In this document: piece after piece, positions 44,152-46,621 of the stretch
Layout: every line of letters begins with the position of its first letter
Numbering within the stretch: the first letter of the stretch is position 1
Origin: Saccharothrix sp. S26
GTDB lineage: Bacteria; Actinomycetota; Actinomycetes; Mycobacteriales; Pseudonocardiaceae
DNA length: 64,000 nt
Direction of reading: 5' to 3'
NCBI RefSeq assembly: GCF_021390395.1
Contig: NZ_JAJUWT010000001.1
Coordinates: forward strand, 434,001-498,000
Position numbers and translations under genes: made by a program
Notes under the pieces: model-generated
What the model was told of the DNA's origin: nothing
The model's input: the letters and a program-made list of their open reading frames with translations, nothing else
Databases searched by the model: none

Positions 44152-45414
44152 TCAGTCCTGGAGCGCCTTCAGCACGGCCTCGGCCGAGGGCGGGACGTTG
44201 GCGCGGGGGCCGACGCTGCCGCCCAGGGCGTCGAGGGTCTTCAGGCCGTCGCCGGTGATGAGGAGCACCGTCTCGCCATCCGGGTCCAGCTGACCGGTCT
44301 CGATGAGCTTCTTCGCGGTCGCGACGGTGACGCCGCCGGCCGTCTCCGCGAAGATGCCCTCGGTCCGGGCCAGCAGGCGGATGCCCTCGACGACCTCTTC
44401 GTCGGTGACGTCCTCGATCGCGCCGTTGGTGCGGCGGACGGCGTCCAGCACGTAGGGGCCGTCGGCGGGCGCGCCGATCGCCAGCGAGCGGGCGATGGTG
44501 TCCGGGCGGACCGGGGTGACCACGTCGTGGCCGGACTTGAAGGCGGCCGAGACGGGGGAGCAGCCGGTGGCCTGCGCGCCGAACACGCGGTAGGGGGTCT
44601 GCTCGACCAGGTCGAGCTCGCCCAGCTCGCGGAAGGCCTTGTCGACCTTGGTCAACTGGGAGCCGGACGCGATGGGCACCACGATCTGGTCGGGCAGCCG
44701 CCAGCCGAGCTGTTCGGCGACCTCGTACCCGAGCGTCTTGGAGCCCTCGGCGTAGTAGGGGCGGACGTTGACGTTGACGAACGCCCAGTCCTCGTGCTCG
44801 GCGGCCAGTTCCTGCGCCAGCCGGTTCACGTCGTCGTAGTTGCCGTCGACGGTGATCAGGTTGCCGCCGTAGACGGCGGTCATGAGGATCTTCGCCTGCT
44901 CCAGGGTGGACGGTACCAGCACCACCGACTGCCAGCCGGCGCGGGCCGCCGCGGCGGCGACGGCGTTGGCCAGGTTGCCGGTGGACGGGCAGGCCAGGAC
45001 CTTGAAGCCCAGCTCGCGGGCGGCGGCGAGGGCGACGCCGACCACGCGGTCCTTGAAGGAGTGGGTCGGGTTGCCGGTGTCGTCCTTCACCCACACCTTG
45101 CGCACGCCCAGGGCCTTGGCGAGGCGGTCGGCCTCGACCAGGCGGGTCCCGCCGGGGTTGGTGTTGGGGTGCGACTCGACGGTGGTCGGCACGGGGAGCA
45201 GGCCGCGGTAGCGCCAGATCGACCGGGGGCCCGCCTCGATGTCCTCGCGACGGATCCGACCGAAGTCGTAGGCCACTTCCAGCGGCCCGAAACACTCGAG
45301 GCAGGCGTACTCGGCGGCGAGCGGGGTCTCGTGGCCGCATTCACGACACGACAGCGCGCGGGCGGGACCGAGGTCGAAGGAGGTGGTGGCCGGGGGCACA
45401 CTGACAGCAGTCAT
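44152..45414 (-). CDS. thrC: Threonine synthase-type PLP enzyme (threonine or homocysteine synthase)
   Basis: 420 residues, ATG at 45414. An N-terminal zinc-ribbon-like part (CRECGHETPLAAEYACLECF) precedes the fold-type II PLP domain. The PLP lysine is in NPTHSFKDRVVGVALAAARE near 125; STGNLANAV binds the phosphate and PIASGSQLTKVDKAF follows. It acts on O-phosphohomoserine. This Zn-ribbon subtype matches the Streptomyces thrC-like gene that, as I recall, travels with a MoaD/ThiS sulfur carrier; a homologue named MetM was reported to make homocysteine this way. No carrier gene is next to it here, nor hom or thrB. The leader is a SAM-I riboswitch, so control is by SAM. Confidence 0.9.
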   Translation of the reverse strand: MTAVSVPPATTSFDLGPARALSCRECGHETPLAAEYACLECFGPLEVAYDFGRIRREDIEAGPRSIWRYRGLLPVPTTVESHPNTNPGGTRLVEADRLAKALGVRKVWVKDDTGNPTHSFKDRVVGVALAAARELGFKVLACPSTGNLANAVAAAAARAGWQSVVLVPSTLEQAKILMTAVYGGNLITVDGNYDDVNRLAQELAAEHEDWAFVNVNVRPYYAEGSKTLGYEVAEQLGWRLPDQIVVPIASGSQLTKVDKAFRELGELDLVEQTPYRVFGAQATGCSPVSAAFKSGHDVVTPVRPDTIARSLAIGAPADGPYVLDAVRRTNGAIEDVTDEEVVEGIRLLARTEGIFAETAGGVTVATAKKLIETGQLDPDGETVLLITGDGLKTLDALGGSVGPRANVPPSAEAVLKALQD

Positions 45415-45427
45415 CGCGAGGTATCTC

Positions 45428-45539
45428 CTCATCTTTCCCGCGCGTCGCGGGTCGGAATTGGCACCGTGGTCGCCAGCGGACGCTGTGCGACGGGTTGCCG
45501 GGGCTTCTTCGGGCCGATCCCTCTGCCCCTCTGGATGAG
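45428..45539 (-). ncRNA. SAM-I (S-box) riboswitch in the leader of the thrC-type gene
   Basis: Read on the minus strand: CTCATC (P1 5' strand), CAGAGGGGCAGAGGGATC, GGCCC, GAAGAAGCCCCGGCAACC, a P3 hairpin (GTCGC...GCGAC), GGTGCCAATTCC, a P4 hairpin (CCCGCG ACG CGCGGG), AAAGATGAG (P1 3' strand). All the conserved SAM-I blocks are present in order. The P1 strand GATGAG runs into the ribosome-binding site (GATGAGGAG), 13-18 bases before the start codon, so ligand-stabilised P1 would hide it: translational OFF control. No U-tract terminator is seen. Confidence 0.93.
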
Positions 45540-45637
45540 CGGTATTCAGTTGTGCCCTCAACTTACGGCACCATCCCGACCCTCAGCCAGAGACGTCCAC
45601 CATCCGGACGCCCGGCGCGCGTGGGAGGATCGCGTCC

Positions 45638-46621
45638 GTGAGTGCGCCCGCTGACACGTCCGCCGCCGTGCACCTGATCGTCGGCGAGGAGGAGTTGCTG
45701 GTCGAGCGCGCGGTGCGCGGTGCGTTGGCGGTGGCGCGGAAGGCGGATCCGCAGGCCGACCTGACCCGCGTCCGCGTGACCGATCTCACCCCTCCCGAGC
45801 TGGCTGAACTGGTGAGCCCGTCGCTGTTCGCCGAGGGGCGGGTGGTGGCGCTGGAGGCAGCGCAGGAGTGCGGCAAGGAGGTCGCCGACGCGATCATGGC
45901 CTACGCCAAGGCACCGGCGGACGGGGTGACGCTGGTCGTCGTCCACAGTGGCGGCGGGCGCAGCAAGGTGGCCAAGGACCTGCCCGCGGTGCTGCGGAAG
46001 GCGGGTGCCGCGGTCACCGAGTGCCCCAAGATCACCAAGGCGGCGGACCGGGAGGCGTTCGTCCGCAACGAGATCCGCGCGGCGGGCGGCGGCAAGGCCG
46101 ACCCGGAGGCCGTGGCGGCGTTGATCGAGGCAGTCGGGTCGGACCTGCGCGAGTTGGCGGCGGCGGCCTCGCAGCTCGTCGCCGACACCGGCGGCAAGGT
46201 CGACGCCGAGGCGGTCCGCCGCTACCACCGCGGTCGGGCCGAGGTGACCGGGTTCGCGGTCGCGGAGAAGGCCGTGATGGGTGATCGGGCCGGTGCGCTG
46301 GAGGCGTTGCGGTGGGCGCTCCAGCTCGGCGTGCCGCACGTGCTGGTCGCCGACGCGTTGGCCGACGCGGTGCGCACGATCGCGCGGGTGTCCGCGGTGG
46401 GCCGGGGCGACCCGTTCAAGCTGGCGGGCGAGCTGGGCATGCCGCCGTGGAAGGTGAAGAAGGCCCAGGGCCAGTCGCGTGGCTGGGAGGACCGGGGCCT
46501 CGCCGCGGCGATGACGGTGGTCGCCGACCTGAACGCCGACGTGAAGGGCGTCGCGGCCGACTCGGGCTACGCCCTGGAACGCGCGGTGCTCAAGATCGTC
46601 GCCGCCCACGGCCGCCGCTGA
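45638..46621 (+). CDS. holA: DNA polymerase III subunit delta
   Basis: 327 residues. HLIVGEEELLVERAVRGAL at the N-terminus, then LSGGGRSK-like HSGGGRSKVAKDLPAVLRKA and the C-terminal helical collar (FAVAEKAVMGDRAGALEALR, MPPWKVKKAQGQSRGW). It opens the beta clamp in the clamp loader. GTG at 45638. It follows the comEA-comEC block as in mycobacteria, and is divergent from the thrC-type gene. Confidence 0.93.
   Translation: MSAPADTSAAVHLIVGEEELLVERAVRGALAVARKADPQADLTRVRVTDLTPPELAELVSPSLFAEGRVVALEAAQECGKEVADAIMAYAKAPADGVTLVVVHSGGGRSKVAKDLPAVLRKAGAAVTECPKITKAADREAFVRNEIRAAGGGKADPEAVAALIEAVGSDLRELAAAASQLVADTGGKVDAEAVRRYHRGRAEVTGFAVAEKAVMGDRAGALEALRWALQLGVPHVLVADALADAVRTIARVSAVGRGDPFKLAGELGMPPWKVKKAQGQSRGWEDRGLAAAMTVVADLNADVKGVAADSGYALERAVLKIVAAHGRR

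Follow-up and report, generated by a model that had tools for sequence, protein, structure and literature searches.

The locus raises the question of why a SAM-I riboswitch should stand in front of a gene that can be annotated as a threonine synthase. A sequence-only reading of the window (the whole 64 kb stretch of DNA analysed here) had pointed out that switching off threonine synthesis when SAM is abundant would be metabolically backwards. This paradox disappears, as the gene is most likely metM, which would serve methionine synthesis, and a separate ThrC is encoded elsewhere in the genome, in hom-thrC-thrB. With a probability of roughly 0.85, sequence comparison points to a SAM-I riboswitch that would act at translation on a metM gene and turn it off in response to SAM. 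The features of the locus are the following; leader counts refer to the 130 metM leaders defined further below.

44152..45414, minus strand: metM-type gene (annotatable as threonine synthase), 420 amino acids plus stop codon, placed by family models and a tree
45417..45421, minus strand: CCTCG element, the proposed anti-P1 arm, able to pair with TGAGG on the side of the P1 3' strand; putative function
45425..45429, minus strand: Shine-Dalgarno (SD) sequence AGGAG, read from the sequence, 2 nt inside P1
45426..45541, minus strand: SAM-I aptamer (RF00162), 83.9 bits, full model
45428..45433, minus strand: P1 3' strand GATGAG, read from the sequence; GATGAG in 120/130 and GATGGG in 9/130 leaders
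45534..45539, minus strand: P1 5' strand CTCATC, read from the sequence; the same in 129/130 leaders
45542..45637, minus strand: upstream gap to the divergent gene, defined by position only; no sigma-70-like match
45638..46621, plus strand: divergent neighbouring open reading frame of 327 amino acids, from the list of reading frames

The whole window was scanned against Rfam (cmscan), and the covariance model RF00162 verified the SAM-I aptamer that had been proposed from its conserved blocks. The match at 45426-45541 on the minus strand reaches 83.9 bits (gathering threshold 44.4, E 2.5e-18), spans model positions 1-108 of 108 and is the only gathering-level Rfam match in the 64 kb. The aptamer lies directly upstream of the metM-type gene on the same strand and ends 11 nt before the ATG. 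Provided that transcription starts upstream of the aptamer, the gap at 45542..45637 must contain the metM promoter; the divergent reading frame beyond it resembles the DNA polymerase III delta subunit and is presumably holA. The 9.08 Mb genome (54 contigs) contains two RF00162 matches, the window copy and C3:254135-254227 on the plus strand, the latter 194 nt upstream of an open reading frame whose top NCBIfam match is MetN, below the cut-off (277.5 versus 499.7).

The P1 3' strand GATGAG had been described as running straight into GGAG ahead of the ATG at 45414. This is correct, with G45428 common to both, and the start codon (45414-45412, minus strand) follows the end of P1 after 13 nt. The direct link between P1 and the ribosome-binding site also held up and proved to be general. 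Among 130 metM leaders (80 named loci and 50 near-set loci including the window, with adjacent leaders of G035, G038 and G051 left out), the start codon lies 8-20 nt past P1 in 130/130, and SD and P1 overlap by 1-3 nt in 79/130. In G037 and G058, two genomes lacking MetM, P1 and the matching reading frame are 42 and 74 nt apart; SAM-I elements upstream of other genes are a poor control for this distance, their first mechanical starts ranging ambiguously from -1 to 194 nt. Folding, performed without pseudoknot and without ligand, predicted a modest drop in SD accessibility with P1 (0.373 versus 0.476), with lower values in 64 of 81 distinct leaders.

The leader had further been said to need no terminator, and a consensus scan of 45380-45760, covering intrinsic terminators only, detected neither terminator-like nor sigma-70-like sites in this interval. 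Intrinsic termination was rejected, since no terminator was found and the stretch between P1 and the start codon leaves no room for one. In Firmicutes, a terminator usually closes the S-box leader. The window leader shares their full-length RF00162 aptamer and, unlike the usual Firmicute S-box, has no terminator platform, P1 itself touching the SD. The SAM-I riboswitch of Xanthomonas campestris works primarily, not solely, at translation (PMC7270179, in the part available); in that riboswitch SD and AUG are sequestered by a hairpin platform separate from P1, whereas in the window leader P1 itself would take this part. The qualification "not solely" in the Xanthomonas case and the restriction of the scan to intrinsic terminators leave some room for a switch whose main route would be RNA decay or Rho-type termination instead of ribosome access, but the constant P1-to-start distance in 130/130 leaders points to the ribosome site, and such a mechanism is considered unlikely.

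The description of the gene as threonine-synthase-type holds for the family and probably not for the role in the cell. Family models place the protein in the threonine-synthase family of PLP enzymes (TIGR00260 269.7 bits, cut-off 167.1; PF00291 252 bits; PRK08197 278, under its cut-off of 303), and its best relatives of solved structure are threonine synthases. These matches favor a true threonine synthase turned off by SAM, i.e. the reversed control originally envisaged. TIGR00260 fails to separate the groups, scoring 269.7 bits for the window protein, 268.3 for a metO-linked Streptomyces protein and 300.3 for the genome's own ThrC. This second threonine synthase is 36% identical to the window protein and is encoded between homoserine dehydrogenase and homoserine kinase (hom-thrC-thrB); the window gene lies outside that cluster, and the copy there is another gene. 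A ThrC-type match besides MetM was present, among the matches listed, in 60/60 genomes (the own genome and 59 others), partial in G048. In a tree of 38 rows, the 14 ThrC rows lie on one side of a branch with 100/100 support and adjoin, within the fetched stretch, a Hom match in 14/14 and a ThrB match in 11/14 cases. The window protein belongs to a group of 20 rows (100/100; duplicate row L239 counted) with proteins from Streptomyces, Actinomadura, Nocardioides and others, including metO-linked ones, and a tool warning marks that long branches meet between the MetM and ThrC groups. It is 66% identical to the metO-linked protein of Streptomyces aurantiogriseus, and cysteines 23, 26, 38 and 41 are nearly invariant (at least 90%) in 16 MetM-type sequences. 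By these comparisons the gene is probably not the threonine synthase of the cell and most likely encodes MetM, a homocysteine synthase using O-phosphohomoserine; its placement in MetM would put the SAM-I leader in front of a methionine/SAM-related gene. As the genome also encodes MetY (800.9 bits, cut-off 703) with a MetX-like neighbor (385 bits, below the cut-off of 500), MetM need be neither essential nor the sole route.

In Streptomyces, Hasebe et al. (2024) identified MetM as a homocysteine synthase of a novel kind; there, a metO-like gene encodes a putative sulfur carrier and metM of S. albulus has a SAM riboswitch upstream (PMC12172450, in the part available). The Streptomyces MetM/MetO route resembles the window in combining a ThrC-like enzyme with an upstream SAM riboswitch. 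In vitro, a Microcystis homologue sharing 51.6% identity with MetM works as a threonine synthase on O-phosphohomoserine and also turns threonine into 2-oxobutanoate (PMC12172450, same part), which counts in favor of a true threonine synthase in the window; by analogy, MetM-type enzymes may keep some threonine-synthase activity. In S. lividans, a survey in which 21/22 elements were transcribed, the available part not naming the exception, tabulated in 2021 a SAM element (RF00162) before SLIV_16930-SLIV_16925 under "threonine biosynthesis" (PMC8079986). That locus resembles the window in its RF00162 element, its "threonine biosynthesis" gene and a second gene behind, and the available part of the survey holds no MetM reading; we infer that SLIV_16930 is metM of S. 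lividans. According to the available part of a 2005 study (PMC1262725), neither threonine nor methionine operons of actinobacteria were found to be preceded by conserved RNA structures.

The linkage of SAM-I and metM is strongly conserved. A MetM-type match above 500 bits was found, among the matches listed, in 54/60 near-set genomes, and SAM-I lies upstream on the same strand in 53 of these 54; in the exception, G040, MetM and SAM-I are on different contigs, with SAM-I near a contig end. A class-wide draw of 118 genomes, sharing G000 and G049 with the near set, contained 87 with MetM at E 1e-90 or better, and SAM-I lies at most 400 nt upstream in 85/87 (two weak, G156 at 49.1 and G167 at 47.0 bits); in the two exceptions the match is confined to residues 151-417 and 162-415, with the gene start outside it. 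The named loci, which are the best 80 of at least 582 confirmed relatives, had SAM-I before MetM in 80/80 cases by our own covariance model, built partly from 4 of these loci, and Rfam confirmed 6/6 of those checked. Searching for the aptamer with a strict regular expression recovered 48/80 as compared with 80/80 by the covariance model, and the misses are put down to the pattern. A distant search with the locus among plasmid records yielded four records and added nothing. The switch-gene pair is widespread in actinobacteria and of a kind already known.

Six near-set genomes lack MetM, and two of them (G042 and G045) lack SAM-I as well. In the other four, SAM-I precedes a MetX-type gene (G058; 298.7 bits, cut-off 296), a cystathionine gamma-synthase/O-succinylhomoserine lyase gene (G037; TIGR02080 565.8, cut-off 504.55), an ABC transporter ATPase gene (G052) and a reading frame without family match (G055). 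As the G058 gene is MetX-type and the G037 gene lyase-type, SAM-I stands before another gene of a homocysteine route in 2/4 of these cases. Several further observations were made in the same genomes. G055 carries a divergent SAM-I/SAM-IV pair (L162:3093-3182, minus strand, and L162:3347-3461, plus strand) about 165 nt apart. G028 (L164-L168) has six SAM-I matches, one below the cut-off, some of them before oligopeptide-type binding protein and amino oxidase-like genes. In G020, the fragments C67:1-207 (at a contig end) and C62:410991-411125 are 83% and 89% identical to two MetM ends and are perhaps a second, split metM copy. A metagenome bin labelled Spirochaetaceae (L110) with an actinobacterial-type SAM-I and metM (75% identical) looks like a mis-binned contig.

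The surroundings of metM provide a second line of evidence on the function of the gene. A gene for a ThiS/MoaD-type carrier follows 3' of metM in 54/80 named loci (the best 80 of at least 582 relatives), the carrier match beginning at most about 135 nt after the MetM match; the carrier of S. aurantiogriseus ends in GG. This sulfur-carrier linkage, the separate ThrC with its place in a different tree group, and the placement of SAM-I before metX- or metB-type genes in two relatives lacking MetM all argue against a true threonine synthase under reversed control, which is judged improbable in spite of the family matches and the Microcystis activity. The apparent paradox arises from the family name "threonine synthase"; because the gene is best read as MetM, SAM OFF control would be ordinary feedback.

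Thiocarboxylated MetO is reportedly the sulfur donor of MetM. Unlike the Streptomyces MetM/MetO route, metM of the window has no adjoining metO, and the same is true of the loci read from its order: no CysO/MetO-type carrier was detected beside metM in 50/50 near-set loci, the window included (flanks up to 1.5 kb, some below 1 kb). The 26/80 named loci without a following carrier comprise 17 with Pseudonocardiales-type names (sorted by name only: Lentzea, Allokutzneria, Actinokineospora, Pseudonocardia, Actinopolyspora, Amycolatopsis, Thermocrispum, Prauserella, Actinomycetospora, Saccharomonospora), four Nocardioidaceae and five other metagenome-assembled genomes. The own genome has five ThiS-family matches, and its CysO, 65% identical to Streptomyces MetO, is encoded in mec-cysO-cysM, which shares a contig with metM of the window at a distance of about 250 kb. 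A second, more distant carrier of this type (L173:2950-3387, own genome C1:271611-271886; 41% identical to CysO) ends in GG and lies away from cysM.

A carrier match was found in 33/38 genomes searched, and the five without one (G037, G042, G045, G052, G058) all lack MetM; G055 lacks MetM yet has a carrier match, and the MetM-bearing G041 has a distant carrier only (44%, 62 bits). The carrier adjoins Mec and CysM in 29/29 loci examined, G039, G041 and G047 having given no locus and G055 being outside these 29. In the class-wide draw, a carrier match accompanies 86/87 MetM genomes versus 21/31 without MetM (Fisher p 4e-6, relatedness ignored), a correlation to be read with the fact that CysO has its own use with CysM; the one MetM genome without a match, G131, is 84% complete. 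In the CysO-CysM system of actinobacteria, the thiocarboxylated carrier gives sulfur to O-phosphoserine. The carrier is of the same type, and its use by MetM is our proposal: the missing metO beside metM in this order leaves CysO as the likely carrier, judging from gene content.

Between P1 and the start codon, a short element may compete with P1. A hairpin of at least 5 bp between the P1 3' strand and the start codon can be drawn in 59/81 distinct stretches, compared with a mean of 24.0 (sd 3.2, maximum 32) in 300 sets in which only the SD-to-start part was shuffled, and 56 of these 59 hairpins draw at least 2 bases of their 5' arm from the P1 3' strand. Within the 20 nt before the start codon, the hairpin was found for 50/81 metM starts versus 4/43 metO starts of the named loci and CCTC for 51/81 versus 1/43; these counts are drawn from related sequences, and their independence is overstated. 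The SD falls wholly into the hairpin loop in 16/59 and by at least half in 29/59 stretches, and the predicted hairpin may either help or hinder the ribosome. Covariation offers no check on the hairpin, because the 5' arm coincides with the P1 strand, which hardly varies. The weakest alternative, in which SAM would turn the gene on (the SD-overlapping CCUC hairpin as off state, P1 freeing the SD, and surplus SAM sending O-phosphohomoserine to threonine; plant threonine synthase is activated by SAM), can invoke a hairpin that takes P1 and SD bases in many leaders, but P1 itself overlaps or abuts the SD, folding lowered SD accessibility with P1 in 64/81 distinct leaders and gene identity points to methionine, so that this highly improbable switch was rejected, like the reversed-control threonine synthase, mainly on gene identity.

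Under the preferred reading of a translational OFF switch on metM, MetM would take O-phosphohomoserine from the threonine branch and replace its phosphate with sulfur to give homocysteine. When SAM is plentiful, its binding would lock P1, whose 3' strand overlaps the SD, and metM translation would decrease, providing negative feedback on methionine and SAM synthesis, with CysO of mec-cysO-cysM as the putative sulfur donor. A combined proposal goes further and is offered tentatively, with the odds somewhat against it. Actinobacterial metM SAM-I leaders would hold a minimal platform of at most 20 nt: a CCUC-type strand immediately ahead of the start codon would imitate the 5' strand of P1 and compete with it for the 3' strand, so that the SD switches between P1 and a very small hairpin. 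MetM of the window's order, without a private carrier, would take its sulfur from CysO, one thiocarboxylated protein serving both CysM (cysteine) and MetM (methionine). The lineage without metO, its presumed reliance on CysO and the candidate anti-P1 element are possibly new with respect to the open-licence literature searched, which leaves priority unsettled.

With the gene read as MetM, its regulation no longer looks contradictory, and many "threonine synthase" genes of actinobacteria may be methionine genes that can be told by their SAM-I leader. If true, the order to which the window belongs would be a case of one sulfur carrier acting in two amino acid pathways, and the metM leader would be a case of an unusually compact SAM-I platform for translational control.
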